Part shown: in pieces, positions 16,151 to 64,000 of the stretch | How the letters are laid out: each line of letters begins with the position of its first letter | Position numbering within the stretch: the stretch's first letter is position 1 | Assembly: GCA_021234155.1 (NCBI GenBank) | Contig: JAJEKV010000010.1 | Span: 20,982,833-21,046,832 of the forward strand | Direction of reading: 5' to 3' | Source of the DNA: Isoetes taiwanensis | Lineage: Eukaryota; Streptophyta; Lycopodiopsida; Isoetales; Isoetaceae | DNA length: 64,000 nt | Program-made: the position numbers and the translations under genes | Notes under the pieces: generated by a model | What the model was told of the DNA's origin: nothing | The model's database searches: none | Seen by the model: the letters and a program-made list of their open reading frames with translations, nothing else

Positions 16151-16159
16151 GGGGGACCT

Positions 16160-23870: not shown

Positions 23871-23871
23871 T

Positions 23872-24575
23872 TTTTTTGAAGAACGACAAACTTTATTGAA
23901 ACTCCAAGCCAAAAGCAAAATACAAATGCAGAGGTGGGAATAAAGTCTCAGAGGATAATCATGATCCACTGAGTAGAACCACCAGCCTATGTATAAGACA
24001 GCACACTCAAGTAGGACTCAAATATCAACTGTCGCTTGGCAGGAGCAAGCGAATGCCTTAGCGATTCTAGCTTGTGCGTCCTGGAGGACAATTGCAGGAG
24101 GAATATCCAAACCGTGAAAGATACACAGTCTTCTGCACTTCCAGATGGACCACAACAACCATCCTGATGCTAAATGAAATGCTTGGCTCCGCAACTTACT
24201 CCAAGCATCCGGATAAATAGCCAGAAACACTTGCTGACTTGTCAATGTCACATGAAAAAGAGAAAGCAGCCAAAACCAAACAGGCTGGAGATGGACACAT
24301 AAAAAGAAACAATGCTCAATGGTCTCGTCCCTTTGATTGCACAGTGGGCAGAGTGCTGACACTCGAGGATCAAATCTGTGGACAAGCACGTTCACACGAG
24401 GGCATCTATGAAGAATCTGCCACCAAAGCACCGCCACCTTAGGATGGAGTAGTTTATCCCAAGCCCAAGTCCACATACGTCTCCAACTAGGAGGTGAAAG
24501 CTGAAGGGACCACCTAGTGGATGGCGGAAGGATATCACTATTGACAAGCAGCTTATACATAGAGTTCACAAGCCT
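23872..24575 (-). mobile_element. 5'-truncated LINE fragment (zf-RVT end), first copy
   Basis: On the minus strand this encodes the C-terminal end of a non-LTR reverse transcriptase ORF2 over 24569-24018. It shows W-R-R-M-W-T-W-A-W-D-K-L, H-P-K-V-A-V-L-W-W-Q-I-L-H-R-C-P, then C-P-L-C-N-Q-R-D-E-T-I-E-H-C-F-F-L-C, the C-x2-C-x7-H-x4-C zinc motif of zf-RVT. The 3' end finishes AATAAAG...TTCTTC plus poly(A) (T-run at 23870). Only about 700 bp are present, so the copy is dead. It lies within the subterminal-type array. Confidence 0.85.
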
Positions 24576-24779
24576 AAAGTTTGAAGAGAAATCTGATGCT
24601 TTTTAATAAAAAATTGTGACGCAAGAACTGGCACAAAATTTGATGATTTTTCGTTAGATAATATCCGTCAGATATGCCAAACATATGAGTGTGGGCAGTC
24701 ACCTGTTTTGTGAAGGGTTTCCAATTCCGGTCGAGGAGAGCTTTCAAAAAAGTAGTATCATGCACAAGGAAGTAAAAGA

Positions 24780-25000
24780 ATATTGAGGATATCTAAGGAA
24801 TTTTAGAGAATCTAAGAGAATATTGATGAAATCCAATGAGATCTTAGAGAATGTGAGATGATGTCAAGAATCTTGAGAGAATTTAAGAGAATTTTGATGG
24901 AATCTTAGGAAATCAACAAGGATCTTGATGGCACTTTCAGAAAAATGTTGAAGGAATCTTAGGCATGTAGAGGAATCTTAAGGGAATCTTCAGTATGCCT
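24780..25000 (+). repeat. Degenerate GAATCTTAG repeats
   Basis: Many imperfect units of GAATCTTAG, GAGAATCTAAG and GAATATTGATGAAAT repeat every 15-25 bp. No coding signal is seen. The second copy is at 56,255-56,475. Confidence 0.7.
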
Positions 25001-25079
25001 TGTAAGCATAATCCATCAAAACACAAGCCATAGATGTATGTTGAAGTTTCTTATGTTGAAGGGTTTTTTTTGCACCACT

Positions 25080-25290
25080 TTCAATAGACACAATTCAAAT
25101 CAATAAATGAGCCGATAAAGAGAAATGCTCATGACAGCTTTGGTCGTCGTGATATATTTCTTGTAATGGTATTATAGCCTTATCCCTTTTTCTCTGGCCC
25201 TTTCACTATCGACCTGTCCCTCAAGCCTATTGGTCTCCGTGGACGTTAAAAAAATTATTCTATTCTATTCTATTCTATTGTAATAGAAAT
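25080..25290 (+). mobile_element. Retroposon 3' end with a (TATTC)n tail
   Basis: The segment ends CTCCGTGGACGTTAAAAAAA and then (ATTCT)n. The 3' terminus is the one seen at 14560-14600, followed there by (TTCC)n. The second copy is at 56,560-56,755. Confidence 0.5.
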
Positions 25291-25299
25291 AGTTTTTTT

Positions 25300-26470
25300 G
25301 ATAAATGCCATTACTGTTTTTGTAGTATTTAAAACATAATAGAAGAATTTTTATTACTAAAATTATTATCATCAACATTGCTTTTAGAGTTGAAAAGTAG
25401 AATTATGAATAGATGACGTCCTTTCTTCAAAGTCAACTGCATTACCAATATTCCTAGCTGTAGATTTAGAATTGAATTGAATTAATCTAAATTGAATTGA
25501 ATTGATTAGGAAGTACAATGTAGTATCTGAATTACGAGTAAGGTTAAGGAAGTCAAACGAAAAACAAGGTCATACGAAATTAATCTATTACTCTTTCTAG
25601 TTTGCTGCTAAAACGAGAGATTACACTTCTGCTTCTTTGTTTTATAGCCATTCTAATGATGCAAATCTAGAGCCATGTCTTACTTGCATATCTAAAATCT
25701 AGCTGAGAAAGTAATATTTTAATAACCACAATCATGCCAATATTCTTTGAATGCAGAACCTCAACTAAAATCTATCAGCAGCTTCTAAAATGCTCCACAA
25801 AGACAATTTTCAAAAGATATCCTCAAATGTAAAGGAGGAGAAAGACCACGAAAGGAATAGTATAGGGGAGGATCGCTAATAGTGGACCATGTACAATAAT
25901 GGACAAGGGTAAGATTGATCAATTTTTTTGATTGTGGCTCAACATAAAATTTTTGTTTCACTCTCAACCATTGAATAAAGTGGGTAAAGTGGATTCAATC
26001 CTGAGCATGTAATTTTGATCTACAATAGGGTATTTAAAGGATTCATACTATTTATAGATAGATCCATTTCATGTGGAGATCCAGGACTCTATGTACCCAA
26101 TTATTTAAAAAAAAGTATATGCTTTACCTCATATCAAGAGCTTTCACTTGCTAACGTTTTTTGAAATTTAGTTTAAAAAAAAAAAAAAAAAGAGCATCAT
26201 CTTCCATAACACACCGAAACACAAATTTTTCATTTTTTTTTTCCGATACAAAATGCGGTCAATAAAGCATGGCCGCCATAACATCATCTCCGAAAGAAAG
26301 AAATGAAAAGAGGCCCAATCTACCTGTCTTAGCTTCAATATCTTCATAACAGTATACTGCACTACAATGATTTTTTGCATATAGTTTGCAATGCTGCCTT
26401 TCGCAGGTCTTCTGGCTTATTCAACAATGGCTAAACTCTAGAAGTAACCAAGACTGTCCCGCTCCTCTTT
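25300..26470. other. Unassigned AT-rich sequence
   Basis: No supported gene, with poly(A) and poly(T) runs near 26,180-26,240. Short ORFs lack motifs. Confidence 0.4.
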
Positions 26471-26479
26471 CCTCTTCTG

Positions 26480-26745
26480 CTGCATGAATCCAAAAAGTGT
26501 GGAACCAAAACTTTTATCTGAAACTAATTCCTAGCAATCTAGTTTTTATCACTCTAGTAGAAACAACCAATAGAAATTGAAAACAATGAGGGAAGATCCG
26601 CCGAATCGGCCATGGTGGATCTTAAATTCATCGTGCAAAGTAAGCCATGGCGGTCGCTCTACCTATCCGCCATTGCTAGAAAATAAAAATGAGATTATGC
26701 CGCCTGGGGATAAGAATAACCGATTTAGAACCAATTTAGCTGTGC
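26480..26745 (+). repeat. Local direct repeat, unit 1
   Basis: This contains ATTCCTAGCAATCTAG, GAGGGAAGATCCGCC, CATGGTGGATCTTAAATTC, AAGCCATGG and GAGATTAT in order. The same order appears at 27850-28095. Confidence 0.75.
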
Positions 26746-27849
26746 TAACATCTTGTACCTTTATCATTTTACTTCAAGTTTGTTGTTATACTTGGACTTT
26801 CAAAATGGCAATACCTTACCAAGTTGACCTTCTTCACTTTTATCTACCTTTGTTTTAGTGTATGGTTTGTGGCTGGACTCAATCAAGAAGGAAAAATTTC
26901 TCATAGATGCTTATATAGTTTTCGGCAAGGAATTATAAATTTCTGGGTAAAATGTTGAAGCAGTCCACTATTTAGGAAAAATTAGAAGATTTTTAGAAAG
27001 CGTAAAAAGTCCGGGTAGTAGCTCCTATGACGATCTGGCCCATACATGTCATCTGCCACATGAAGAAAGGAGAGCGTTCAGTATGGCCTAATTTCTTCTC
27101 TAAACTGCGAACATTGACTAGATGCGAATGGAAGCCTGCATCTCTTTTTCCATTACTTCCTTCCAGTTACCACAACGTTTAGACTTTATTGCTGCATCAT
27201 ATCATTTACGATCCTCCACTAATTGTGGAATTCAAAAAGGCAATTTAAAACTCATTTGCCTATAAACATAACATGCATGACGTATTTAATTTTTTTTTCC
27301 TTAATCTACTTCAGGTTATGTGCGGTATCTATGGCTCTCCTGCATTATGGCTAAATCCCGCATTGTGGCTAAATCTTGGCCATTTCGGCCAAGACCAACA
27401 TGCAATATTCCACCTGAAGTTAAATCCTAGCTGATATAATGGAAACGTCCAAAAAGGAAACTCATTCCTTTAAGATCATTCATTGAAAACAAGGTGTACA
27501 AAATATGCCAAATCCCTAAATTTAAAAGAACACTAAACTAGTAAAAAAAGCTACTCCGTAGGAATCAAACCTGAGTAATGCCACTGAACGCTAAAGCAAA
27601 GGATTCAAGAAGAAAGCTGAGAGCATGTTTATTCGATAAGATTGTTCTCTAACAAACAAGGAATACATGCCTGAGGCTTCTTCGGATAAGCTGCATAAAT
27701 ATACATAAAGATGCACAAATTTGTACTCAATTTTTCTTCCAAACAATGGATAAAGGCTTGCAAAAATTTAGTGCTTCTTCTGCTCGACCCTGACGAAGAT
27801 ATATACTAGATCTCACAAACAAAAAATCATAACATGTAAAAATCTGAAA

Positions 27850-28095
27850 CCACAATTTCTATCTGAAACGAGTTCCTAGCAATCTAAGTCTTTACCACTC
27901 TAAGAGAAACAACAATTTGTAGAAATAAAAATAAATGAGGGAAGATCCGCCAGAGCCGACCATGGTGGATCTTAAATTCTTCTACATAAAACAAGCCATG
28001 GCTAGTGCTCTCCACCTGTTCGCAATCACCAGAAAATAAAGGTGAGATTATACCACTTCACGAATAAGAAGAACTGATTTAGCAATTCCACAGAT
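27850..28095 (+). repeat. Local direct repeat, unit 2
   Basis: This is the partner of 26480-26745, about 1.37 kb away and in direct orientation. It ends roughly 90 bp before the left end of the candidate 8.35-kb element. The pair may be old terminal repeats of a small element; I see no coding sequence between them. Confidence 0.75.
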
Positions 28096-28182
28096 CCAGC
28101 GCCACCTTACGCCCCTTCGAACCATGCCTCTGCTGCCCAGAAAAACAACTGCCATACCATTCTGGAATAAACAAGATTGCGT

Positions 28183-28243
28183 ATTAAACGGGAGCAAATC
28201 ATTGAAACGAGAGCAAAAGGAATATTCCGCAAAGATTCCCTTT
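28183..28243 (+). repeat. Candidate left inverted terminal repeat
   Basis: Two blocks, ATTAAACGGGAG and CAAAGATTCCCTTT, are shared in inverse orientation with 36494-36537. The 35-bp spacer differs from the right end. Confidence 0.55.
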
Positions 28244-28549
28244 TTTTTTACGAAAAAGGGGGTAAAATGAGGTTAAAAAAAAAAAAGATGCATGAAATTC
28301 TATTTTGACCCCCCCCGAAATGACTAAATTTTTTTTGCAACGAAGGAATTGACTTTTTTAAAGTGTCACTTTTCTTAGCAAAAAGAATGTTCTTAAAGTA
28401 TGTTTTAAGAGAGAAACTCTAATTTCAGAGGATAAAATATTTAACAAAAAATTGAAGTAAGTCTGTAATTGAAACTGTAGTATTCTCAAAATTTGAAGAT
28501 AGAATCTTCATATTCACATCAAAATTTACAGTCTTTTTCTAAGACTCAG

Positions 28550-31500
28550 TTATGTGCAAAAGTGTGAGGAGTGATGAGAGAGGGATCCAGGACGTCCTCA
28601 TGTTCATTTATGCCATCGTCATCACCTTCACTTCTTTCTTTGTCACTTTCGAGGAAGTGCTTGAGTTATCTTCCTCATCACTATCAATGACGGTGAAGCA
28701 TTGTCACCACCTTCTTCATCATCTTCTTCATAATTACAAGCTTTTTTAAGCAAATTGATAGTCTACGGCGTGTAGCGATTGTCGATTTCAATTTAAAATC
28801 ATAGCACAATATAGTCCGTCATTAAGGTTCAACTTCGTCCCTACAACCCACCTTCTTGGACTTTCTCCCTTTTCCTTGGCTTCTCATTTCTAACTCATAT
28901 CTACCTTCAAAAGCATTTTCTGGCGTGTTGCAAGCCAATGAATCTTGAGTTTAGTGACTAAGCCTTCCTCCTTGGTATTTGTCAAGCACTTTTTTTATCC
29001 TATCGAGCGGTCGACCTTTGTCATCCTCCTCGGTCGGAAGAGCAATTAGCATACCTTTGGTAATTTACGTGATATTACCTTGGGGCTCATTCCTGCGTCT
29101 TGGTCCGAGGTACATGACTTCGGTCCTCCTCGTCTTCTACTTGAGGTGCAAATGTAGCTTGCTTGGACCTGCTTGGTTTGGGGTTGATGGAAGGTGTTAG
29201 GCCATTGAAATGGTTCTTGCAACTGTCTTAGAGCTATGTTTTTGTACAACAATTTTCTGTTAGAAAGAAATTACTCCACCACATCCGATCTTCTTCTAAG
29301 AAGTACTTAAAACTCGAGGAAATTCCATTTTCAATGGCTTTTAAGGATGACTCGGGGTACTTTTCTTCTGCTTGGACTCCTTAGGATTTTTGAGAGGAAG
29401 TTGCTCAAAGACGTTCTATGAAGGAAGTGCGGAATATATTTAAGGAAGCGTAATCCCTACGGCGGACTCGGTCCTTAGTTGTGGTATACTTCTTCCCACG
29501 TAAGAAGCTTTGGCCATCCTTCAAGTAGAACTTGATATGATGTTGAAAGGTGAGATCATTCAACTTGTTCACGGCTTGTTCTCTGTTTGAGCGTTGAGAG
29601 AAAACAAACTCTACGAAATCAGCGGTCTCTTTAAGAAGATCGACCCTTTGGAGTAGGAGTGTAAGAATCTTCAATAATTGAACTAAAGAAGGGAAGGCAG
29701 AAAGCCTTCTTCCTTCTAAAGCGCCTGAAAAATCTCTTGAACATTTGGTCAATCGATCATGAGTGTGGCCTACAAGTAAGAAACCCGAGCTTCACTTTTC
29801 TAAAGATCCCTAGCTCCACTAACATGGCACGATCGCATAAAAGAGTGTTTGATTCTTGTTCTCCCTTGTAGTATTGTCAAGTTGCGGATAAAGCACCGGT
29901 GGTAATTGCTCTTGCTTTCGCCACAGGACCTTGTTAAGAATTGTAATTGTGAGGTTGGGGTCACCATGCAAGTTTGGATCGTCAAAAAAACTTTGCACCT
30001 TAGACTTCCTTTGAAGACCATAGCTCCTACAAGGTGGACCTTAACAAAACATTCCTCTGGCACATCTTTAGGAATGTTCAAGAAATGTGGTAGAGTTGTT
30101 TTTTTTTGGTCCATTCCATCAATCACAACAGACATGTATTGCAGTGGACGTTCAAGAGCTTTTTTTCTATGCTTGGCAAGCTTTCTTCTCTCTGCTGCTT
30201 GTTGTTCACGATGTCTGGCAAGGTTCTGTTGCACAATATCTGTAGAAGAAATCAGGTCAAAGCATTTTCTCTAAAACAAGTGAGAGATTGGAGAACATGA
30301 ACTTACTTCTTTCGACCTCTGTCTTTGCAGTTTCTCGTTGACTCTTTAATTCTGCACACCTCGAGCAAACAGACATTCTATGTTTTCTAGGAATTTTCAC
30401 AAGACCGAATTCACTTTTCCACAGTCTGGTGAAGTGTGAGTAAGAGATGTGCTGAAGCTGAGTGCAAGTCTCTTTGTACTCATTAAAACATCCTTTTGGT
30501 GATGTTATCAGTTAAATGATACATGTTGCTGTTAGGTAGCTTCTCACATGTTTCTCTAAAATATTTCTCCATCCAGGACACAGCAGCAAGGGCATGCATG
30601 GTTACAACTCTTCTTGGTCCACAATGATCATCGATTGCTGGATTTTTGTCCAGTCTTTTGTGTATTCTAGACATTCTTGTGGACCCTAAACGGTGGACAA
30701 CCATAAAACATTTCTGGCAAACTTCTTGACGGTTAATGTAGTGCAAGAAGGTGTTGCGGTGCGGTCTTACATGATAAGCTAAGTAGGCATTACGGTGCCG
30801 CCAATGTCATGGAACTGTAGTTGTCTCTAACTGCTCGTAATTTAGCCATGTTAAGTCTGTTGATGCAACCCAATGAGCAGCATTTAGTTCTCAAAAGTCT
30901 CCTCATTTTCTGTTCATCCATAAGATTTCTTCTTCTTGCAGAGGAGCAAGCCCTCAAACCAAAATCCACCTTGAATTTCTTTGAAGATTGGCTTGAGAAC
31001 ATGTAATCTCTTTGTTCCTCGTTGGTGTCTTCATCTTCTGATGAAACTTCTACTCTGGGGGTGACTTCCTCTGTCCTGAGTGGTGTGCTTGTAGAGGAAA
31101 ACAGACCACGTGAAGTTGTTCGGGAATAGCTGGGTGTGTTAAAGGGTGGTGATGGCCCATAAGAGGTTGTGGCATGTTGTTCTTGTACCATCTTGAAAAG
31201 GAGTTCTTGCAAACATCTCCTTTAGAGCGGATTTGGAATTACGCAAATCCATGTGTCACAACCCTTGTTGTGTGAAGAGGAGTGCATCTTTGGAGCTTAG
31301 ATCCTCATTTGTAGTGAAGTCACGGTGAGAGAAATTGTAGTGAATCTCCACGGTCTTACGTGTTTTTACGTGTTCCTTGTATGTTTGCACGAAGGAGGCG
31401 AAACTACAAAAGGGGGGGGTAGCTTGTTCTTGAGCACCCTTTGTTGTGGAGCTTCTGCAGGTCCCGGGGATGGAGCAAAGGGTGGTGGCAGCCCGCTCCG

Positions 31501-31757
31501 AACTAGTGGTGATTCTTTGGAAGGAGATGCCAGTGTGCTGTCTACAGGACTTGGTGACGGTTGGAAGGGTGGTGGAAGTGCATTGCGTCTTTGGACTCGG
31601 TGTGTCTTGAGAAGCAAGAACGATGAAGCGAGAGGTAGGAGTCGGAGAATTCCGGTCTTGAAGAAAAGCGGCGTTGGTCCCAAAGCGTGTCCTCGAACGC
31701 GAGGGCGAGCTTGAGACAGCGAAAGGTGGTGGAAGTTTGTTGACGGCGGTTTGTCAT
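28550..31757 (-). pseudogene. DUF7869-like DDE protein gene, first copy (frame-broken)
   Basis: This is the duplicate of the gene at 60022-63227. Several exonic stretches are open, for example 31212-30790 (acidic linker through C-C-S-L-G-C-I-N-R-L) and 30234-29950. The frame breaks many times between 29.9 and 28.55 kb and around 30.48-30.6 kb. Comparison with the second copy places most breaks at CTG, CAG or CG sites. In the linker (about 31050-31130) this copy is open and the second is broken. The breaks may therefore be sequence error and not decay. Confidence 0.75.
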
Positions 31758-32139
31758 CTTAAGAAGCGCAAAGCGAAGTGTAGAGTTTAGATAATGTTTC
31801 TCTCGCAGAGCTTTTCTTATTCCGAATACAAGCCCGCCTACTAAAAGTAGAACTTCCCGCAACAATTAAGCGAAAGGCAAACTAAAAGCTATTCGAATAC
31901 ACTAGAGCGAGAACGGTAAAGGCCAAGCGTATTCCACTTCACATAGAAAAGCGAGCAAGGCGGAATGGACACCTTTAAAAAGGAAATTTTGGCCTTGATG
32001 GGTTGCGTATTCGGTCTCGAAGCTGAAGTCGCCCGGCGCCAGTATGCTCGGAATATAATATTGAGCTGTATTCGATACTCATAGAGAAAACATGGAGAGG
32101 TGAGTAAGAAAGTACAAGGTACAATCATTTGTGTAATGC

Positions 32140-32475
32140 GTTTCTTATTCGAATACATTTACGCCTTCCCTCGAGCGAAAAAGTGTATTCGGGAATACAC
32201 ATTAAGCCTTCCCTCGAAGGCGAAAGTGTATTCCGAATACACTTCCCTGCGTGTATTCGAATACACTTTGCCCGCCTTCGGCGTAAGTGTATTCTCGAAT
32301 ACACAGCTTTTTCGAGAAAGCGTAAAGTGTCCGAATACACTTGCTTGGAGGAAAGGCGAAAAGTGTATTCCGAATACACACCGCCTTGGAGGAAAGCGAA
32401 AGTGTATTCCGGGAATACACGCTCGCCTTCCCTCAAAAGCGAAAGTGTATTCCGGAATACACATTCGTGTTCTTT
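32140..32475. repeat. Palindrome array between the divergent genes (first copy)
   Basis: About nine copies of the palindrome GTGTATTCCGGAATACAC, with variation at the two to four central bases, are spaced about 42 bp apart. The spacers carry a second inverted repeat, CGCCTTC/GAAGGCG. The array lies between the minus-strand DDE gene (start 31757) and the plus-strand methyltransferase gene (from about 32810), where both promoters should be. Overlapping ORFs on both strands come from the palindromes. Single related sites (TATTCGAATAC) also lie at 31889 and 32060. Confidence 0.9.
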
Positions 32476-32809
32476 GTTTTGTAAGTTTGTTTTTCCGTGA
32501 TTTTGTAGTATTTGTAATTGTTTTTACGCTTTTTTAAAACTTGTTTAGACTGTTTTTGTCAAGATTGCGGTGTTGTTTTGGCATTTTGGTCCTCTTTTGC
32601 CCTTGTTTTTCCTTTTCGCAAGACATTTTGTATACGGAATAGTTTTTGCCTTTGCTTTCTCTAACAAGATCGTGTTTACACACAATTTACCTGAACAAGA
32701 AGGCGACAGAAACAACACAAGAGAACCGTTAAAATCCCAGCGAAACCGCACCCACAGAGAAGGGTTGAGGGAGACATCTGCGCGCCATCTCTGAAAACTT
32801 TCAAACTCA

Positions 32810-35800
32810 ATGGTTTTTACAAGGGTACTTACGGAAAGTCAAGCACACTTACTTTCCTACATGTATGCTGTCGGAGTCTTTGGAGCAAAAAATGCGATGA
32901 TGAGAGGGAATTTGTTTGCATGGGCACCATCCGGTCCGTGAGTGAAGTAGGTGGGGGAGTCCAGGCCAGCGAGGGAGGCTGTCTTTTCAGACATCCCAAG
33001 GCTTTATTCATGTTGATGAATCCTATTTTAGAGTGGTGAAAGTAAATCCTCGTCCCTTCTGTACAAGTATGTTGCTCACTACATGCCAAGAGGTAATTTC
33101 GGTGCCATCATCAACTATGTTGAGAAGCACAACGGCGAAGACTTCCCTACAGCGAGTCCGAGCCAGAGGAAGAGGATGAGCAACCGAGCCCGGCAGTTCC
33201 TCATCACAATCACGGGAGTCCATCCGCGGTCCGTGAAAGGCCACCGTCACCACCACCAAAGAAGCGGCCAAAGGGACACAATTGCTGCTAAAGAGCCTAA
33301 AAAAGCGGGCGGCCTTAATTGCTGGGAGGATATTTCGAGGAACCTAAGAAGAAGAAGGGGAAGGGTAAAGCACCGGTGTTGCTATAAAAAAAAAAAGTTG
33401 ACAAGACTGGCTGAAAAGATGGAAGAGATTAACTTGCACAAGTTTGTGCAAGGTGTAATTATTTGCCGATCACTTCAATGAAGCTTCCACCGAAAAATGA
33501 AGCTGGTGAAAGGCCACTTCAGGTTATAAAATTTATGTCGATCACTTAAGGAACACGAAAAGGCGAGAATAAGGAGCAATCAAATGCTCATGTGGCCCCA
33601 ATTGTTGTCCTTGTTGGTGAGGGAAGAGTGCAAAACCCCGGGGACTATGGCGAGAGAAAAGCGAGACCTACACTCACTACGTCTTGGGAGGCAATCACAC
33701 TTTAAGGCAAGAAGGCAACTTTATAAAGAGAAGAAGAACCCGAGGTACCTCTCTAGTCCTCTGGCGGTATTTTTCTTGTGGTCTTACCGATGAAGAAGCG
33801 AAAATCGTTGCCAACACCCACAATCGCGACAACGAATATAAACTAAAGATGAGCCGTCGACAAGATCCGGTTCATGCAATGGGGGGAGTGCGTAATATTC
33901 AAGGAAAAATACGGTGAGGACTGAAGAAGCCGGCATTTTCCTTGGAGCTTAAGGAGGCGTGTGCTATTGAATGCTGCCTGAAATATGACGAGGCCAACAA
34001 AAGGCAGTCTCTCATTGGCCACGACAACTGGTTCCAGTTAGCTTTTAGAGATGGCAAGGTAAGCACAAAATGTATTCGAATAGCAAATCAACTATTTGCG
34101 TGAATCTTCTTGAGCAGATTTGGGAACTCAAGACCGGATATTTACAATGTTGGCGAGGGAGTTAAAGAGCAAGGAAAAGGAGGCGACTAAGAAAAAAAAG
34201 CTCGGGCATACAAAAAAAAAAATGACCATTACCGTCGGCGGAAATGCGGGGCTTCTCACGGAGACTTCTCGGCGACTTCTCCAAAAAGTTGTTGATAAGG
34301 AGTTTAGCCTAGAAGAAATGTCAAAGGAATTACACAAGTAAGTTCTCGACACAAACATTAGTTATTGCATGTTAGATTCCCAAAAACATCGTGGCTAGTG
34401 TATTCGAATACACATGCCTTTCTTTACAGGGCAATGTGTATTAGGAATACACATTGCTTGTCTCTAGAAAGGCATTGTGTATTCGAATACACATTGCCCG
34501 TGTGAAGGAAGGCATGTGTATTAGGAATACACATTGCTCCTCTGAATGTTGGCTGTGTGTATACGGAATACGCATGCGTTCCTTTAGAGAAGCAATGTGT
34601 TTGTCCTGTAGTAGAACTATTTTACGCATATTGTTTTGGTAGCATCAAAAGTTAACCGGTTTGTATTCGAATACAATTAGCTTGACTTGTATTTGTTTTT
34701 CTTTTACGTTGCCTTCATTCTTTCGTTTAAACTCATTGTTTCCTTAGCGTGTTGCAGCCAAAAAAGCGTCATAACATGTCAAACATGTTTGATGGAGCGA
34801 CTAAACGTCGACACACATGGGAAGGTGCAAGGAACTCTACCCAATTGCCACATCCGTGACGCATTGTCAATATTCACCAAATTTTGAGGGCTGGGTAATT
34901 ACACTTAGAATTCCTTCTCTCGCACAAGCGATCTCTTGGCCGGTTGTTGTTTTGTTTTTCTTAGAGCAAAAAGAAAAATAAAGACCTACCCGAGGGCTTT
35001 ATGAATTTGGTTAGAAACACACGGAAGAGAGGTCGTTAGCTGAAAGAAGAACTGTTGAGCCAGAACCATCCGACTACGAGAGATTCTGCATGTTTGATCA
35101 AAACAATTTATATTCAATCATTCATGGTGATTGCACGAACCTTGTCGGAACGGTTAAGCCACAGGACTTTACTTTGGTTATTGCTGATCTTCCCTATGGG
35201 TTTAAGCTTAAAGGCAATGGAATCGACGACCGACCCTTCAAATTTTCAGAGTTTAATGCTTTTATTGAAGGAATTAAGCAGATCTCAACGGCCAAACATT
35301 GGCGTTTAGTTACGTTCCATTCGAGCATGCAGTCTGGCTTGGTGGAATCAGCTTTCAAAAATCACTTTGGTTCTCCAGTTCAGGCAGGATATGAAAACCT
35401 TGTCTGGTAAGTCTTATTCCAGAATACAATTACTTTTCTCTTTAATTACGTAGTGTGTATTAGGAATAGTATTTCTGTTTTACGGTTTTGAAGTGTTTTC
35501 TTGTTTTTGCTAATATCACTTTATATGCTTCACTAGGTACAAAGCGAACATCAACTACCATGGTGGAGGACCAAGGTTGCTTTCGGCAAGGTAGAGTACC
35601 TTCATGTAGCTTATTGGAGTTTTGATGGGAAGAGGACCATGGACCACTTTAACACCTTGCCTTTGTCAAAACTTTTCAAAGCGTCCTAGAGTTTCCAGCA
35701 GTCTTCACAGAAATTGCGGGACCCAAGTGCACAAAGGCGGATTGTGAATCACTACGAAACCACAAAAGCTCATCAACCATCTCTGGACATGTTCGCGCGT

Positions 35801-36193
35801 CCGGAGATTGGGTACTTGATGCTTTCTGCGGTTACGTACTACTATCGCATGTGCACTTAAGAAGGGCCAAGCGTGTAGCCGTGGATATTGATAAGGAGGC
35901 ATTGCATTTTGTGAAGATGAGACTGGCTGCCTTACCTACTTTACCGGATGAAAATCAGGAGTTAGGGGCCAAGTCTTCATCGATTATGCTAAACTAACGT
36001 CCTCGGAGATCTGACCTCCATTCTCGACTCACTAGGCGATGAGGCAACCTTTGCGAGCTTAAAAAGTAGCTTTAGCTACCATTCCGAAGAACAAGGAGGA
36101 TACAAAACTCAAGTCCCGGTAAAGAAGCGAGATAGAAACAGAAGGGGCGAGATGGCGAGAGCGACAAAAAGAATGAGGAGGACTATGATGTAG
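32810..36193 (+). CDS. ParB/Srx-like domain plus amino-methyltransferase, split gene
   Basis: Pieces in consistent order on the plus strand read as one gene with frame breaks. First comes an N-terminal region of unknown fold with an acidic, Pro-rich linker (about 33145-33290). A ParB/Srx-like domain follows (33515-33900): K-I-Y-V-D-H-L-R-N, then Y-V-L-G-G-N-H-T-L-R, then C-G-L-T-D-E-E-A-K-I-V-A-N-T-H-N. Next is a Lys-rich linker (34120-34340). After the palindrome-bearing intron, the catalytic domain shows A-D-L-P-Y-G (motif IV, DPPY type) at about 35190. A further exon starts at 35538, and D-A-F-C-G (motif I) at about 35820 is followed by V-D-I-D-K-E-A. Motif IV before motif I is the permuted beta-type order. 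A basic tail ends at TAG 36191. It would methylate adenine or cytosine amino groups of DNA. Similar fusions are familiar in phages and bacteria. At least five frame breaks; no second copy to compare. Confidence 0.7.
34395..34600. repeat. Palindrome array in an intron of the methyltransferase gene
   Basis: Five palindromes of the same family alternate between GTGTATTCGAATACAC and GTGTATTAGGAATACAC, about 46 bp apart. The spacers (GCCTTTCT, GGAAGGC) differ from those of the intergenic array. Single related sites follow at 34660, 35420 and 35453. Confidence 0.85.
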
Positions 36194-36493
36194 ATCTTTG
36201 ACTCACGCATATTAAAATTATCATTATTTATTACAATGAATCTTCAATATTGATGTACAACAATTTATTAAAACATAGTACTTTTTTTTCCTTTCTATTA
36301 CGGTGCTTGTTTTTGTAATGCTTTCGGTCTCTTCAAGTCTATGCCTAAATTTTGCTACTTTTATGATTTGTGTTTCATAAGTACAAAGTTTTCGTCTAAT
36401 AATGGGCCAAAATGGCATGAAAAAAAATGCAAACCTCTAGAAATTCTTAACAACTATCAAAAAAGGCTTATTTTAGAAACTTCGTGTTTTTTT

Positions 36494-36537
36494 AAAGGGA
36501 ATCTTTGAAGCGGGGTGATGCAACACTCCCGTTTAAT
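36494..36537 (-). repeat. Candidate right inverted terminal repeat
   Basis: This is the inverse of the blocks at 28183-28243, 300 bp beyond the end of the methyltransferase gene. Confidence 0.55.
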
Positions 36538-36539
36538 TC

Positions 36540-38450
36540 TGTCGATGTTAATACCAACAGGTAGAGTAAAAATCTAATTCTAATAGCACAATACACATAG
36601 TTCTAAATGCCAAAAAACACCCACAAGTAGCAACTTTCAAGCCCTTACAATGGTTTCCTTATTTCTTTACAATGTCTTTTCTCCATAGAGCCTCAGCATT
36701 TAAATGAGCAACATTTAAATGAGCTTTAGCTTATCCATCACACAAAAGAAAGAGAACAAAAATCTTATTTTGTTCGATTGAAATGAATTTTGCCATCCAC
36801 GGAGACCAAAAGTCTTATGGGATTCAAACAGAGAAACAATGCACACCTTGATTCGGGAAATTCCCCAGAACCCTTGTAACCTACCATATGAATCTGAAAA
36901 TTCACACTATAGTTTTAAGATAGCAGGAAAATTTCCTGTTAAAAATAGCGATTTCTCTGGTTACTTTTAACCGGAATTGAGTGCGAGCATGGAGGTGGTA
37001 GGCTAGGCCAGATCCAGCAAGAAATATGCCATTATGCTTTAAAACTTTCCTGAACTAAGATGCAAACTATCTATTTAATGCATTAAACTGTAAGACATAG
37101 GCATATGTCTAATATCTTAAAAGGAACATTCCTTGGTTTAATCTTTCATATAGTATTGCCATATCTTTAATATTATTATGAGCTATAGCATGGGAAAATT
37201 CGTATAATGTAAAATCTCGTCAATGATTTAATCACACACTTAAGATACTATAATATCCGTGGCAATAATGTTGAGTAGGCATGATAAAGAATAGAATAGA
37301 ATAGAACAATTGTTTTCAAAACTATATATTCTATCCATGTTGCATGCTTTGTTGGGTGAATATGGAATTGCAAAAAGAAAGTACTCTTTGCGGTCTGGTC
37401 ATCCGAGCATTTGGTTTAGTGGTAACACATTCGTCTTAGAACAAATATATCTCGAGTTAAAGCTATTGCTTGTGATACTTTGCTTCGGATGCAACTGTAG
37501 GTTCAATGCTTTCCTTTGCTTAGTTTAACATATTTGTTCCAGGTATACATAACGAGTTATATCCATTACTATGAAATATTCTTATCGATTTTCATGGAGT
37601 ATCTCAAGATGCTTACCTCTATTTGGCAAGGTGATAAGGAAAAGGATAATATCCTATAGTGCAATTCCTCAAACATCTAATGTAGGAAGGTCCATCATTC
37701 TAGGGAAGTTCACAATTTTTTACGTATAACTTTGTTTTGCATGCATGGGGAGGGAGTTCTTGACCCATTTACATTTATATATATGTTCGTATGGGGTCCT
37801 TTTCTAGGGTTTTGGGCACTAGCCTAGGTAAACTTTATTTGCAAGGGGGCAAAATTAGCTTCTTAAAAATCCATATCAGGTTTTACCACCCCTTGAGCGT
37901 GAGATGGCATATTCCCCTACGTTATGAGTACACCTTGCCATCGTTAGATTAGAATACCATCATTAGGATAGAATACTGGGCTTAGAAGAGTGATGTTATC
38001 AGCTTAACAATGATAATCTTCGCCCTAGTGTTTAATAGACACCCCTTTGTGATTATGCACAAAGCCCACTTCGATGATATGGTCCCATGGGTTATAGGGT
38101 TAACAAAATTCACATTCCAATCTTAATCATGCTTGTCTTTCATTGTTGAATACAATATTTGAGATGGATAATATGTGAGCACATGCAAGAATTATGTGAA
38201 TAAGGCCTCCTTCCTCGGGTTGTATAGAAGTGGCTGAATTCATGAAAAAATTAGGAATACAAAGCAACTGTCAAGCAATTCAGTTTCCACTATTTAGTGG
38301 GAATAACAAGTCGAATTTAAGTCAAAGGATGGGATTTAAATAAGCCTGTTCGAGTTTGAGCTGAGACTTTTGTAAAATCTAATAATGTTGAGCTCTAAGA
38401 GCAAAAAGAATGATATAAGTATGATGTTTTTACAAAGGCGGGCCGATCCA
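36540..38450. other. Unassigned AT-rich sequence
   Basis: No gene is seen apart from the tRNA-like relic near 37.4 kb. An inverted fragment of the retroposon 3' end (CCATCCACGGAGACC) lies near 36795, and (AATAG)n lies at 37288. Confidence 0.4.
37395..37475 (+). ncRNA. tRNA-like relic (SINE head?)
   Basis: TGGTTTAGTGG is a perfect match to the pol III A box consensus and is followed by TAACACATTCGTCTTAGAAC, as in a tRNA D-arm and anticodon arm. The B box region (CTCGAGTTAAAGCT) is degenerate and the acceptor stem does not pair convincingly, so this is not a functional tRNA. It may be a SINE promoter or an old tRNA pseudogene. Confidence 0.3.
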
Positions 38451-56759: not shown

Positions 56760-59655
56760 AATAGTTTTTTTGATAAATGCCAACTGTTTTTGTAGTATTT
56801 AAAACATAATAGAAGAATTTTTATTACTAAAATTATTATCATCAACATTGCTTTTAGAGTTGAAAAGTAGAATTATGAATAGATGACGTCCTTTCTTCAA
56901 AGTCAACTGCATTACCAATATTCCTAGCTGTAGATTTAGAATTGAATTGAATTAATCTAAATTGAATTGAATTGATTAGGAAGTACAATGTAGTATCTGA
57001 ATTACGAGTAAGGTTAAGGAAGTCAAACGAAAAACAAGGTCATACGAAATTAATCTATTACTCTTTCTAGTTTGCTGCTAAAACGAGAGATTACACTTCT
57101 GCTTCTTTGTTTTATAGCCATTCTAATGATGCAAATCTAGAGCCATGTCTTACTTGCATATCTAAAATCTAGCTGAGAAAGTAATATTTTAATAACCACA
57201 ATCATGCCAATATTCTTTGAATGCAGAACCTCAACTAAAATCTATCAGCAGCTTCTAAAATGCTCCACAAAGACAATTTTCAAAAGATATCCTCAAATGT
57301 AAAGGAGGAGAAAGACCACGAAAGGAATAGTATAGGGGAGGATCGCTAATAGTGGACCATGTACAATAATGGACAAGGGTAAGATTGATCAATTTTTTGA
57401 TTGTGGCTCAACATAAAATTTTTTGTTTCACTCTCAACCATTGAATAAAGTGGGTAAAGTGGATTCAATCCCCGAGCATGTAATTTTGATCTACAATAGG
57501 GTATTTAAAGGATTCATACTATTTATAGATAGATCCATTTCATGTGGAGATCCAGGACTCTATGTACCCAATTATTTAAAAAAAAGTATATGCTTTACCT
57601 CATATCAAGAGCTTTCACTTGCTAACGTTTTTTGAAATTTAGTTTAAAAAAAAAAAAAGAGCATCATCTTCCATAACACAATCAAAACACAAATTTTTCA
57701 TTTTTTTTTCCGATACAAAATGCGGTCAATAAAGCATGGCCGCCATAACATCATCTCCGAAAGAAAGAAATGAAAAGAGGCCCAATCTACCTGTCTTAGC
57801 TTCAATATCTTCATAACAGTATACTGCACTACAATGATTTTTTGCATATAGTTTGCAATGCTGCCTTTCGCAGGTCTTCTGGCTTATTCAACAATGGCTA
57901 AACTCTAGAAGTAACCAAGACTGTCCCGCTCCTCTTTCCTCTTCTGCTGCATGAATCCAAAAAGTGTGGAACCAAAACTTTTATCTGAAACTAATTCCTA
58001 GCAATCTAGTTTTTATCACTCTAGTAGAAACAACCAATAGAAATTGAAAACAATGAGGGAAGATCCGCCGGAACTGGCCATGGTGGATCTTAAATTCATC
58101 TGTGCAAAGTAAGCCATGGCCAGTGCGCTCTACCTATCCGCCATTGCTAGAAAATAAAAATGAGATTATGCCGCTTCAGGGATAAGAATAACCGATTTAG
58201 AACCAATTTAGCTGTGCTAACATCTTGTACCTTTATCATTTTTACTTCAGTTTGTTGTTATACTTGGACTTTCAAAATGGCAATACCTTACCAAGTTGAC
58301 CTTCTTCACTTTTATCTACCTTTGTTTTAGTGTATGGTTTGTGGCTGGACTCAATCAAGAAGGAAAAATTTCTCATAGATGCTTATATAGTTTTCGGCAA
58401 GGAATTATAAATTTCTGGGTAAAATGTTGAACAGTCCCACTATTTAGGAAAAATTAGAAGATTTTGGGGTGCGTAAAAGTCTGGTAGTAGCTCCTATGAC
58501 GATCTGGCCCATACATGTCATCTGCCACATGAAGAAAGGAGAGCGTTCAGTATGGCCTAATTTCTTCTCTAAACTGCGAACATTGACTAGATGCGAATGG
58601 AAGCCTGCATCTCTTTTTCCATTACTTCCTTCCAGTTACCACAACGTTTAGACTTTATTGCTGCATCATATCATTTACGATCCTCCACTAATTGTGGAAT
58701 TCAAAAAGGCAATTTAAAACTCATTTGCCTATAAACATAACATGCATGACGTATTTAATTTTTTTTTCCTTAATCTACTTCAGGTTATGTGCGGTATCTA
58801 TGGCTCTCCTGCATTATGGCTAAATCCCGCATTGTGGCTAAATCTTGGCCATTTCGGCCAAGACCAACATGCAATATTCCACCTGAAGTTAAATCCTAGC
58901 TGATATAATGGAAACGTCCAAAAAGGAAACTCATTCCTTTAAGATCATTCATTGAAAACAAGGTGTACAAAATATGCCAAATCCCTAAATTTAAAAGAAC
59001 ACTAAACTAGTAAAAAAAGCTACTCCGTAGGAATCAAACCTGAGTAATGCCACTGAACGCTAAAGCAAAGGATTCAAGAAGAAAGCTGAGAGCATGTTTA
59101 TTCGATAAGATTGTTCTCTAACAAACAAGGAATACATGCCTGAGGCTTCTTCGGATAAGCTGCATAAATATACATAAAGATGCACAAATTTGTACTCAAT
59201 TTTTCTTCCAAACAATGGATAAAGGCTTGCAAAAATTTAGTGCTTCTTCTGCTCGACCCTGACGAAGATATATACTAGATCTCACAAACAAAAAATCATA
59301 ACATGTAAAAATCTGAAACCACAATTTCTATCTGAAACGAGTTCCTAGCAATCTAAGTCTTTACCACTCTAAGAGAAACAACAATTTGTAGAAATAAAAA
59401 TAAATGAGGGAAGATCCGCCAGAGCCGACCATGGTGGATCTTAAATTCTTCTACATAAAACAAGCCATGGCTAGTGCTCTCCACCTGTTCGCAATCACCA
59501 GAAAATAAAGGTGAGATTATACCACTTCACGAATAAGAAGAACTGATTTAGCAATTCCACAGATCCAGCGCCACCTGCCACGCCCCTTTCGAACCATGCC
59601 TCTGCTGCCCAGAAAAACAACTGCCATACCATTCTGGAATAAACAAGATTGCGTA
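56760..59655. other. Duplicate of 25300-28182, no gene seen
   Basis: This is almost identical to the first copy, including both units of the local direct repeat (about 57,955-58,220 and 59,325-59,570). It ends at the second copy of the left end of the candidate 8.35-kb element. Confidence 0.5.
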
Positions 59656-60021
59656 TTAAACGGGAGCAAATCATTGAAACGAGAGCAAAAGGAATATTCC
59701 ACAAAGATTCCCTTTTTTTTACGAAAAAGGGGGTAAAATGAGGTTAAAAAAAAAAAGATGCATGAAATTCTATTTTGACCCCCCGAATGACTAAATTTTT
59801 TTTTTTCTGCAACGAAGGAATTGACTTTTTAAAGTGTCACTTTTCTTAGCAAAAAGAATGTTCTTAAAGTATGTTTTAAGAGAGAAACTCTAATTTCAGA
59901 GGATAAAATATTTAACAAAAAATTGAAGTAAGTCTGTAATTGAAACTGTAGTATTCTCAAAATTTGAAGATAGAATCTTCATATTCACATCAAAATTCAG
60001 AGTCTTTTTCTAAGACTCGGA

Positions 60022-63000
60022 TTATGTGCAAAAGTGTGAGGAGTGATGAGAGAGGGGATCCAGGGCGTCCTCATGTTCATTTATGCCATCGTCATCACCT
60101 TCACTTCTTTCACAAGCCACCTTCGAGGAAGTGCTTGAGTTATCTTCCTCATCACTATCAACAGACGGTGAAGCATTGTCACCACCTTCTTCATCATCTT
60201 CTTCATAATTACAAGCTTTTTTAAGCAAATTGATAGTCTTCTGGCGTAGACGATTGTCAGATTTCAATTTAAAATCATAGCACAATATAGTCACGTCATT
60301 AAGGTTCAGCTCGTCCCTACAACCCACCTTCTTGGACTTTCTCCCTTTTCCTTGGCTTCTCATTTCTAACTCATATCTACCTTCAAAAGCATTTTCTGAG
60401 CGTGTTGCAAGCCAATGAATCTTGAGTTTAGTGACTAAGCCTTCCTCCTTGACTGTGTCAAGCACTTTTGCTATCCAGAACGGTCGACCTTTGTCATCCT
60501 CCTCAGTCGGAAGAGCAATTAGCATACCTTTGGTAATTTCTGTGATATTACCTTGGGGCTCATTCCTGCGTCTTGGTCCGAGGTACATGACTCGGTCCTC
60601 CTCGTCTTCTACTTCAGGTGCAAATGTAGCACTGCTTGGACCTGCTTGGTGCTGGGGTTGATGGAAGGTGTTAGGCCATTGAAATGGTTCTTGCAACTGT
60701 CTTAGAGCTATGTTTTGTACAACAATTTTCTGTTCGAGAAAGAAATTACTCCACCACATCCGATCTTCTTCTAAGAAGTACTTAAAGCCTGAGGAAATTC
60801 CATTTTCAATGGCTTTTAAGGATGACTCTGGGGTACTTTTCTTCTGCTTGGACTCCTTAGGATTTTTGAGAGGAAGTTGCTCAGCACGTTCTATGAAGGA
60901 AGTGTCTGGAATATATTTAAGGAAGCGTAATCCCTCACGGCGGACTCCAGTCCTTAGTTGTGGTATACTTCTTCCCCTGTAAGAAGCTTTGGCCATCCTT
61001 CAAGTAGAACTTGATATGATGTTGAAAGGTGAGATCATTCAACTTGTTCACAGCTTGTTCTCTGTTTGAACGTTGAGAGAAAACAAACTCTCTGAAATCA
61101 GCAGTCTCTTTAAGAAGATCGACCACTGGAGTAGGAGTGTAAGAATCTTCAATAATTCGAACTAAAGAAGGAAGACAGAAAGCCTTCTTCCTTCTAAGGC
61201 GCACAGAAAATCTGCTGAACATTTGGTCAATCTGATCATGAGTGTGGCCTACAAGTAAGAAACCGAGCTTCACTTTTCTAAAGATCCCTAGCTCCACTAA
61301 CATGGCACAGTATGCAAAGAGTGTTTGATTCTTGTTCTCCCTTGTAGTATTGTCAAGTTGCAGATAAAGCACTGGTGGTAATTGCTCTTGCTCGCACAGG
61401 ACCTTGTTAAGAATTGTAATTGTGAGGTTGGGGTCACCATGCAAGTTTGGATACGTCAAAAAAACTTTGCACCTTAGACTTCCTTTGAAGACCATAGCTC
61501 CTACAAGGTGGACCTTAACAAAACATTCCTCTGGCACATCTTTAGGAATGTTCAAGAAATGTGGTAGAGTTGTTTTTTTTTGGTCCATTCCATCAATCAC
61601 AACAGACATGTATTGCAGTGGACGTTCAAGAGCTTTTTTTCTATGCTTGGCAAGCTTTCTTCTCTCTGCTGCTTGTTGTTCACGATGTCTGGCAAGGTTC
61701 TGTTGCACAATATCTGTAGAAGAAATCAGGTCAAAGCATTTTCTCTAAAACAAGTGAGAGATTGGAGAACATGAACTTACTTCTTTCGACCTCTGTCTTT
61801 GCAGTTTCTCGTTGACTCTTTAATTCTGCACACCTCGAGCAAACAGACATTCTATGTTTTCTAGGAATTTTCACAAGACCGAATTCACTTTTCCACAGTC
61901 TGGTGAAGTGTGAGTAAGAGATGTGCTGAAGCTGAGTGCAAGTCTCTTTGTACTCATTAAAAACATCTTTTTTGGTGATGTTATCAGTTAAATGATACAT
62001 GTTGCTGTTAGGTAGCTTCTCACATGTTTCTCTAAAATATTTCTCCATCCAGACACAAAGAAGAAGGGCATGCATGGTTACAACTCTTCTTGGTCCACAA
62101 TGATCATCGATTGCTGGATTTTTGTCCAGTCTTTTGTGTATTCTAGACATTCTTGTGGACCCTAAACGGTGGACAACCATAAAACATTTCTGGCAAACTT
62201 CTTGACGGTTAATGTAGTGCAAGAAGGTGTTGCGGTCTGGTCTTACATGATAAGCTAAGTAGGCATTCTGGTCTGCCAATGTCATGGAACTGTAGTTGTC
62301 TCTAACTGCTCGTAATTTAGCCATGTTAAGTCTGTTGATGCAACCCAATGAGCAGCATTTAGTTCTCAAAAGTCTCCTCATTTTCTGTTCATCCATAAGA
62401 TTTCTTCTTCTTGCAGAGGAGCAAGCCCTCAAACCAAAATCCACCTTGAATTTCTTTGAAGATTGGCTTGAGAACATGTAATCTCTTTGTTCCTCGTTGG
62501 TGTCTTCATCTTCTGATGAAACTTCTACTCTGGGGGTGACTTCCTCTGTCCTGAGTGGTGTGCTTGTAGAGGAAAAAACAGACCACGTGAAGTTGTTCCC
62601 GGAATAGGCGGGGGTACAGTGTTAAAGGGTGGTGATGGCCCATAAGAGGTTGTGGCATCAGCTGTTCTTGTACCATCTTGAAAAGGAGTTCTTGCAAACA
62701 TCTCCTTTAGAGCGGACTGGAATTCTGCAAATCCATGTGTCACAACCCTTGTTGTGTGAAGAGGAGTGCATGCTGGAGCTTCGTCCTCATTTGTAGTGAA
62801 GTCCTGGTGAGAGAAATTGTAGTGAATCTCACAGTCTTCTGTGTTTTCTGTGTTCCTTGTATGTTTGCACGAAGGAGGCTAAAACTACAAAAGGGGGGTA
62901 GCTTGTTCTTGAGCACCCTTTGTTGTGGAGCTTCTGCAGGTCCCGGGATGGAGCAAAGGGTGGTGGCAGCCCGCTCCGAACTAGTGGTGATTCTTTGGAA

Positions 63001-63227
63001 GGAGATGCCAGTGTGCTGTCTACAGGACTTGGTGACGGTTGGAAGGGTGGTGGAAGTCTGTTACGTGCTGGACTCGGTGTGTCTTCGAGAAGCAAGAACG
63101 ATGAAGCGAGGTAGGAGCCGAGAATTCGGTCTTCGAAGAAACGACGTTGGTCCCAAGCGTGTCCTCGTAACCGCACGAGCTTGAGACAACGAAAGGTGGT
63201 GGAAGTTTGTTGACGGCGGTTTGTCAT
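60022..63227 (-). CDS. DUF7869-like DDE transposase-type protein, second copy
   Basis: Two exons: 63227 to 61782, then 61713 to 60022, with a 67-bp intron (GTAAGT donor, TTCTACAG acceptor), about 1,045 residues. The N-terminal third is Pro/Ser-rich and acidic. Cysteine motifs follow (C-C-S-L-G-C, C-Q-K-C, C-S-R-C). The core shows V-V-I-D-G-M-D-Q, then L-Y-L-Q-L-D-N-T-T-R-E-N-K-N, then L-V-G-H-T-H-D-Q-I-D-Q-M-F-S-R-F-S. I read this as an RNase H-like Asp/His set, as in the family annotated DUF7869 (recalled, not searched). The C-terminal part has G-R-P-F-W-I-A-K-V-L, like an SH3/BAH-type reader, and a Ser/Glu tail. Indels break the frame near 62,575, in the 62,830-62,960 G/C runs, and near 60,950. 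It probably transposes the element; this is inferred. Confidence 0.7.
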
Positions 63228-63609
63228 CTTAAGAACGCAAAACAATTGTAGAGTTTAGATAATGTTTCTCTCGCAGAGCTTTTCTTATTCCGTATACAAG
63301 CCCGCCTACTAAAAGTAGAACTTCCTGCAACAATTAAGCGAAAAGGCAAACTAAAAGCTATTCCCGAATACACTAGAGCAGTAACAAAGAAGGCCAAACG
63401 TATTCCACTTCACATAGAAAACGAGCAAGACGGAATGGACACCTTTAAAAGGAAATTTTGGCGCCTTCGTTCGCGTATTCCAATCTCCCGAGCTGAAGTC
63501 GCCAGGCGCCAATCAATATAATATTCGTGAGTCATTTCGATACTCATAGAGAAAACATGGAGAGGTGAGTAAGAAAGTACAAGGTACAATCATTTGTGTG
63601 TAATCTTTT

Positions 63610-63945
63610 TATTCCGGAATACATTTACGCCTTCCCTCGAAGGCGAAAGTGTATTCCGGAATACACATTCGCCTTCCTCGAAGGCTTAAAGTGTATTCCG
63701 TAAATACACTTCCCCTCGTGTATTCGAATACACTTTTCGCCTTCGAGGGAAAAAGTAGTGTATTCCCAATACACTTTAAGCCGAGAGAAGGCAAGTGTAT
63801 TCCTGAATACACTTCGCCTTGGAGGAAAGGCGAAAGTGTATTCCGGAATACACTTAGCCTTGGAGGAAAGGCGAAAGTGTATTCGGATATACACGCTAGC
63901 CTTCCCTCAAAAAGTGTATTCCGGAATACACATTCGTGTTCTTTT
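63610..63945. repeat. Palindrome array, second copy
   Basis: This has the same layout as 32140-32475 with nine sites. Several are perfect GTGTATTCCGGAATACAC; others differ only in the centre. The methyltransferase gene that should follow is outside the window. Confidence 0.9.
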
Positions 63946-64000
63946 GTTTTGTAAGTTTGTTTTTCCGTGATTTTTGTAGTGACTGTAATTGTTTTTTCTG

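Follow-up and report, generated by a model that had tools for sequence, protein, structure and literature searches.

We analysed a 64,000-nucleotide stretch of the Isoetes taiwanensis genome (assembly GCA_021234155.1, contig JAJEKV010000010.1, positions 20,982,833 to 21,046,832 of the forward strand; hereafter the window), which contains an 8.4-kb DNA transposon with a presumed transposase gene on one strand and, on the other, a gene for a putative ParB-like protein fused to a predicted DNA amino-methyltransferase. Two arrays of short palindromes lie inside the element. Positions below are those of the window unless a family member elsewhere in the assembly is named by its locus number (L041 and so on). 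The features of the element are as follows.

28166..28169, no strand assigned: left 4-bp target site duplication, AATA (terminus search)
28170..36549, no strand assigned: whole transposon, 8,380 bp, ends from terminus search and family comparison
28170..28194, plus strand: left terminal inverted repeat; left and right ends of the family agree at 22 of 25 positions
28741..31002, minus strand: presumed transposase gene with a DUF7869 domain, frame broken in the window copy (tblastn map and PF25273)
30305-31002, 29615-30118 and 28741-29456, minus strand: N-terminal, DUF7869 and C-terminal matched parts of the transposase gene (tblastn map)
32183..32462, no strand assigned: palindrome array 1, 8 units of the GTGTATTC..GAATACAC type, one of them partial, between the coding parts of the divergent genes
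32908..33971, plus strand: 5' part of the ParB-methyltransferase gene, with an N-terminal domain (32908-33148) and a ParB-like domain (33422-33971), frame broken (tblastn map)
34398..34675, no strand assigned: palindrome array 2, 5 units, between the ParB-like and methyltransferase coding parts
35090..35934, plus strand: methyltransferase part, with a DLPYG half (35090-35380) and an FSGSGTT half (35591-35934), frame broken (tblastn map and PF01555)
36526..36549, minus strand: right terminal inverted repeat; the outer bases of the window copy deviate from the usual right end of the family
36550..36553, no strand assigned: right 4-bp target site duplication, AATA (terminus search)

An initial annotation, made from the letters of the window, had proposed a single self-contained mobile element on the evidence of two short blocks at 28183-28243 that recur inverted at 36494-36537. 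Both blocks were found where it placed them, ATTAAACGGGAG at 28183 (reverse complement at 36526) and, further in, CAAAGATTCCC at 28230 (reverse complement at 36497). The family ends lie 12-13 bp outside these blocks, at 28170 and 36549, so the proposed limits were that much too short on each side. All 17 copies whose two ends were paired start with AACAA(GA/AG)TTGCGTATTAAACGGGAG and end with CTCCCGTTTAATTTGCAATCGTGTT; their ends coincide, and each lies within an exact 4-bp duplication, the sequence of which varies. Across the assembly (1,658,258,908 bases in 1,110 contigs), the 25-bp left terminus, searched as a pattern with two degenerate positions, has 506 exact matches; the right terminus has 223 and the reversed patterns have none, which argues that the blocks are not a product of chance. 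With ends and duplications shared in this way and the two genes linked (see below), the proposal of one mobile element enclosing both genes stands, as does the presence of palindrome arrays within it; neither of the two outcomes that the initial annotation had named as refuting it was observed.

Further 4-bp duplications were found at L068, L070 and L072-L075, and L046 has no matching pair. Element size is 8.4-8.5 kb in the window copy and in L041-L045. The left 241 bp gave 1,422 first-look candidates, and among the best 40 scored, 12 (the window's included) are identical over the full length, showing that the family has multiplied recently. The excess of exact left ends over right ends (506 versus only 223) indicates that derivatives with other or decayed right ends exist.

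The DUF7869-like gene that had been noted inside the element lies on the minus strand, and the domain was identified as PF25273 at E 4.8e-52 by Pfam searches with translated pieces of the sister copies L042 and L045. Longer open frames on the transposase side occur in relatives, with 784 (L049), 987 (L054) and 857 (L055) amino acids. Three aspartates of the L050 frame (L050:7239-8936), D43, D123 and D165, are invariant in ten transposase sequences and fall in a plausible strand and helix order, a pattern consistent with a DDD enzyme; five further aspartates (D46, D61, D96, D162 and D208) are equally invariant in the same ten. The structural model of this protein has a mean predicted local distance difference test score (pLDDT) of 40.1, and an RNase H fold is not among the 50 structures listed for it. 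Since pLDDT is low for both the transposase (40.1) and the ParB-like region (39.7), fold matches were left unused, except for a weak likeness to BAH domains. This likeness concerns the C-terminal part of the transposase (residues ~400-500 of L050:7239-8936; best E 1.1e-3, poor model), in which Pfam BAH was not found at E 0.1. No relative of the transposase was found in viral contigs.

On the plus strand, the methyltransferase domain was identified as N6_N4_Mtase (PF01555) at E 6.3e-18, with 66 bits against a cut-off of 26.7, again using translated pieces of L042 and L045. All 150 of the best N6_N4_Mtase matches scored in the genome exceed the Pfam cut-off. D(L/I)PYG stands upstream of DAFSGSGTT wherever both halves are readable, for example in L049 and L050; we take these to be catalytic motif IV, whose canonical form is DPPY, and the S-adenosylmethionine (AdoMet) motif I. 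The domain is a predicted beta-class amino-methyltransferase, which would act on adenine N6 or cytosine N4. In L050 a 473-amino-acid open frame spans the N-terminal and ParB-like parts. The ParB-like label is based on sub-threshold matches to the NCBIfam ParB model TIGR03764 in four of eight members (best E 3.1e-4; 15.7 bits against a cut-off of 143.75 in the first member) and on an analogous published protein. DUF6551 gave weak matches in three of the eight (best E 0.0019), and sulfiredoxin chains matched only at E 1.2 or worse. Hence, for the divergent gene initially described as ParB plus amino-methyltransferase, the methyltransferase and its strand are secure and the ParB label is weaker, being sub-threshold and without ParB_N. 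Phages yielded many distant methyltransferases and no match to the ParB-like domain, and viral contigs a single trivial 13-residue match to the methyltransferase.

The two genes are linked, in line with the initial annotation. Genome searches scored the best 150 of 9,910 DUF7869 and the best 150 of 1,444 methyltransferase first-look candidates; at least 24 of these 150 DUF7869 matches lie within 15 kb of a listed methyltransferase match, where 0.4 would be expected by chance, and 22 of the 24 pairs are divergent. We then considered 16 diverged DUF7869 loci, L049-L052 having been chosen for a nearby methyltransferase match and L053-L064 blind to it. The partner gene was represented, by its N-terminal, ParB-like or methyltransferase part, in 13 of the 16 (8/8 and 5/8), and in 9 of the 12 picked blind.

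The genes of near-identical copies are interrupted by scattered differences whose pattern varies between copies, and interiors differ by ~4-9% although 12 of the 40 scored left ends are identical over 241 bp. The window copy shares 19 minority states with its duplicate L047, versus 52 with L043. According to the available text of PMC8566536, nanopore reads underlie the assembly, which was polished with racon and pilon, including short-read polishing. True decay as the cause of the broken frames is disfavoured by the sharing of minority states, the identical left ends and the nanopore assembly; assembly error or unpolished repeats are the likelier cause.

Palindromes were detected as perfect palindromes with arms of at least 7. 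Within the 64 kb, the motif expression matches only the two arrays and the second copy of the element (63649-63931), and no palindrome site lies in the two 20-kb window stretches tested outside the element. Each group of the family has one repeated palindrome: GTGTATTCCGGAATACAC in A, GTATAAATTTATAC in B1, GTATGAATTCATAC in B2 and CTATGCGCGCATAG in C. Among 23 loci scored (seven near-identical copies, the window's included, and 16 relatives), 22 carry the motif of their own group, with A only in clade A, C only in clade C and B1 or B2 only in clade B; L061 alone lacks a motif. A single position per half-site distinguishes B1 from B2, and the two overlap, when one mismatch is allowed, in L053 and L057, which is the sole overlap. 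Exact forward-strand counts in the genome, given against the reversed pattern, are 2585:0 for A and 1551:0 for C, and for the 16-bp forms 7218:0 for B1 (GGTATAAATTTATACC) and 13:0 for B2. Of the first 50 A sites listed, 36 have an exact terminus or a listed gene match within 9 kb.

Across the groups, a spacing near 30 or near 42 bp predominates. Among spacings below 150 bp, the distance is mostly 41-42 bp for A (L042, L045 and L050-L052), commonly 27-34 bp for B1 with many exceptions (L058, L060), and around 40 for C (28-48, then 99 and 82) in the single locus measured; spacings of 42 and 31.5 bp would correspond to whole helical turns. None of 167 sites in 15 loci overlaps detected coding DNA, where 44.4 would be expected under uniform placement, the detected stretches being incomplete exons, so that some sites could fall in undetected coding DNA.

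Two side observations concern these palindromes. In several units of the arrays of L049-L055 and L068, CCAG or CTGG replaces the central CCGG, as expected from decay of methylated CpG. At L069 (G000:C21:10900-20200), truncated units stand in a head-to-tail row, and two of three left ends have palindrome sites and TATTCTGGAATA upstream, as if copies had inserted into palindromes; TTCTGGAATA also precedes the window copy.

Selection in clade A was evaluated in 19 comparisons between pairs of L045, L049, L050, L051 and L055 over five domain stretches. Synonymous differences are 0.59-0.93 throughout, near saturation, and non-synonymous differences (pN) are 0.03-0.14 in 13 of the 19; both genes are under purifying selection in this clade. 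For the close B1 pair L060-L062, the ratio of non-synonymous to synonymous rates (dN/dS) is 0.03 over the ParB-like stretch; the first and second methyltransferase halves give 0.08 and 0.37, L062 being frameshifted in the second. The exact 18-bp core of the palindrome occurs in 2-6 copies in each of six clade A relatives. DNA alignment of L050 with L049, L051, L052 and L055 recovers mainly genes, ends and arrays, and the closer pair L049-L051 aligns nearly end to end. Given that the arrays and the exact core remain alignable despite near-saturated synonymous sites, conservation or homogenisation has maintained the arrays, unlike most neutral DNA.

The arrays have also been retained by a mobile non-autonomous lineage of 2.3-3.1 kb, found through L068. 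From at least 11 further full matches to the stretch flanking the L068 array (best 40 of 387 candidates scored), five were fetched. In each of the six copies the left 800 bp is preserved together with the array (4-9 motif-A sites, allowing up to 4 mismatches); the right 82 bp could be shown for four and the right terminus for five. Their gene remnants amount to a transposase tail of 60-84 residues and, in four of the six, a 35-residue piece of the partner. Exact 4-bp duplications (TTAA, TATT, GAAT, TAAC and TTTA) flank all five copies in which both ends are readable. Exact duplications in copies without working genes indicate that these copies moved after gene loss and took the array along, as expected of a cis-acting site.

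We next place the element among known systems. The initial annotation had compared it with DIRS-like elements. These elements are not known to make target site duplications, whereas the Isoetes element has 4-bp duplications in 17 of 17 pairs. Bacterial ParB-parS, as in phage P1, likewise combines a ParB-like domain and short repeated sites on one mobile DNA, a resemblance of layout; in Isoetes, by contrast, the domain is fused to a methyltransferase and its ParB membership is putative. Retrotransposons with cytosine-5 methyltransferases, as far as described in the available text of PMC5890265, are also mobile elements carrying a DNA methyltransferase, but the Isoetes element is a DNA transposon with a predicted amino-methyltransferase. 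The closest counterpart is Sola1-1_Ec32 of the brown alga Ectocarpus, for which the accessible text of a 2025 paper (PMC12477816) describes a gene for a ParB-like protein with an N4C/N6A methyltransferase opposite the transposase, cites green and red algal cases, and suggests possible binding and modification of the element's own sequence. Both are DNA transposons with an opposite-strand gene for such a protein, 21.5 kb long in Ectocarpus and 8.4 kb in the vascular plant, the likeness being one of gene layout.

Sola elements are characterised, in the part of PMC10741241 available, by a 4-bp target duplication, terminal inverted repeats of 11-1124 bp and a size of mostly 2-9 kb. The Isoetes element shows the duplication in 17/17 copies, terminal repeats agreeing at 22/25 positions and a length of 8.4-8.5 kb. 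It fits a cut-and-paste DNA transposon of Sola type, judged by duplication, termini, size and gene layout. Sola elements are known in plants, including Sola1 of Physcomitrella (PMC9033089, PMC10741241), and these plant elements likewise have 4-bp duplications, terminal inverted repeats and this size range; the accessible portions of the two papers make no mention of a methyltransferase gene or palindrome arrays. It is, in our view, unlikely that the element belongs to a superfamily separate from Sola1 and gained this kind of accessory gene on its own. The likeness to Sola1 is one of general features, PF25273 still bears the label 'domain of unknown function', and no paper naming DUF7869 was found in the open-licence literature; these points favour a separate superfamily, and against it stand the duplication, size and terminal repeats, which fit Sola (PMC10741241, in the part available), and the layout, which resembles Sola1-1_Ec32 (PMC12477816, likewise).

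The suggestion that no described superfamily has this content is not supported, since a Sola1 element with a comparable gene pair is already in print (PMC12477816, accessible text), which makes the Isoetes element a variant of something already described rather than a new class. Searches of the open-licence literature, as far as its texts were available, turned up no description of an element like this from Isoetes or any other vascular plant. The palindrome arrays are an addition beyond the main text of PMC12477816, in which the string 'palindrom' is absent, supplements aside; the novelty of the arrays is judged against that text alone.

These data allow us to propose, at odds only slightly better than even, that this is a Sola-type transposon whose ParB-like methyltransferase reads the element's own palindromes and marks the element. 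Most likely the protein would bind as a dimer to the palindromes, whose arrays occupy the DNA separating the divergent genes as well as non-coding DNA inside the genes. Once bound, it would methylate the element at the arrays, and this methylation may keep promoters active or copies recognisable against silencing by host cytosine methylation. Protein and palindrome would differ together between family groups. In bacteria, dimeric ParB-type proteins read short palindromic sites; arrayed palindromic sites suit a dimeric DNA-binding protein, and the second protein of this family has a putative domain of that kind. By this analogy the palindromes are best read as parS-like addresses through which the ParB-methyltransferase may recognise its own element. 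We infer array binding, methylation at the arrays, its chemistry and its benefit to the element from these patterns; the original idea of self-recognition by the methyltransferase is plausible, now with candidate sites.

Several observations weigh against this proposal. Pfam ParB_N (PF02195) has 0 matches across the genome, where 10 of 14 control genomes do match; profile comparison of the family protein with P1 ParB and P1 Dmt gave no match, P1 Dmt carrying other methylase domains; and the predicted structure of the ParB-like region (pLDDT 39.7) is too poor to use. No partner gene was detected within the fetched 9 kb of L059, L061 and L063. Arrays are present at L059 and L063 though no partner was detected there, and L061 has a clade-B transposase yet neither array nor detected partner. 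Fourteen of the 50 listed A sites lie more than 9 kb from any listed terminus or gene match, the gene lists comprising the best 150. In clade A, pN reaches 0.16-0.32 in 6 of the 19 comparisons, for which frameshifted (L045, L055) or very short (28 codons) rows account at least in part, and the transposase of the L060-L062 pair is under weaker constraint, with dN/dS of 0.29 and 0.48. The six non-autonomous copies that keep the array share one layout and thus represent one derivative lineage, in which retention counts once, followed by maintenance. The array is missing from the 4.4-kb derivative L046, though without a matching duplication L046 also provides no evidence of having moved.

The main rival holds that the arrays are internal binding sites of the transposase, serving transposition as enhancers or in pairing, and that the ParB-methyltransferase is a separate accessory with targets elsewhere. 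The data do not separate this reading from self-marking; we rate it as somewhat unlikely. A transposase site in cis predicts what the gene-less copies display, all six keeping ends and array, and the motif tracks the transposase tree. The N-terminal part of the transposase, moreover, diverges between clades as much as the ParB-like domain does (pN 0.335 and 0.302 for L050 versus L062), which also counts against self-marking; an argument that the whole transposase changed less than the ParB-like domain was rejected, as it holds for the DUF7869 domain and fails for the N-terminal part. Set against a transposase site are two features of the arrays: they lie mid-element, well away from the termini, between the genes and in non-coding parts of them, and they have the short palindromic form that bacterial ParB-type dimers read. 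Array 1, between the coding parts of the divergent genes, is where an operator would be expected, and the ParB-methyltransferase could accordingly be a self-regulator that represses or tunes both genes as copy-number control, with marking secondary. Such a regulator needs neither the second array, between the ParB-like and methyltransferase parts, nor the arrays of gene-less non-autonomous copies, and we consider it distinctly improbable. Very improbable are neutral satellites spread by slippage or conversion, with the methyltransferase a passenger. Array length does vary among near-identical copies, from 3 to 13 motif-A sites (up to 3 mismatches), with assembly errors contributing, and agreement of motif and clade can follow from descent. 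Neutrality sits poorly, however, with an exact 18-bp core kept in six of six clade A relatives despite near-saturated synonymous sites, with four different palindromes in a similar layout, B1 and B2 differing symmetrically in both half-sites, with purifying selection on both genes in clade A, and with an array retained in a mobile non-autonomous lineage.

A more specific form of self-marking is a clade-private address code, in which the ParB-like methyltransferase and the palindrome array change together and each clade marks only its own copies, gene-less hitchhikers included. This we hold tentatively, at rather less than even probability. Motif labels fit the DUF7869 domain tree (18 rows) with four changes and the ParB-like tree (11 rows) with three, the fewest possible in each case. 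B1 is not one branch, as the motif-less L061 falls beside it, and L041 in both trees and L064 in the ParB tree have long, unsure branches. The tree test is one of clustering by descent and is not by itself evidence of co-evolution; agreement between motif and clade could be explained by shared descent alone, a further point on the opposing side.

The remainder of the window holds a second copy of the element and other repeats.

59642..64000, no strand assigned: second element copy, from a neighbourhood duplication, extending past the window to G000:C908:21050788

This copy was ruled out as a separate insertion by its matching flanks and the duplicated neighbourhood. The direct duplication spans at least 17 kb at 96.3% identity (15497-32525 versus 46997-63996), holds the left part of the transposon and leaves the window; it could be a true segmental duplication or unmerged haplotypes. 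Repeat kinds common in plants also occur in the window. Pieces of a CACTA-type transposase lie at 8564-11746 (Transposase_21 tnp2, one piece above and one below cut-off; DUF4216 below cut-off), and a zf-RVT fragment of a plant long interspersed nuclear element (LINE) lies at 24021-24566, with a similar stretch inverted at 42039-42743. An open frame at 6603-7505 has a SET domain barely above the Pfam cut-off.

The presence of N6-methyladenine (6mA) in plants is disputed (PMC12695648, in the text available). Transposons with a ParB-linked amino-methyltransferase are here extended to a vascular plant, in which the family has a high copy number and shows signs of having been active recently. Self-modification is offered in the accessible text of PMC12477816 only as a possibility, and the Isoetes family supplies concrete candidate targets. 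Since a single genome offers four natural motifs and thousands of sites, the idea of transposon self-marking becomes directly testable. The clade-private address code, if true, would give a transposon its own epigenetic means of telling self from non-self, one that works like bacterial ParB-parS and has DNA methylation as its outcome.

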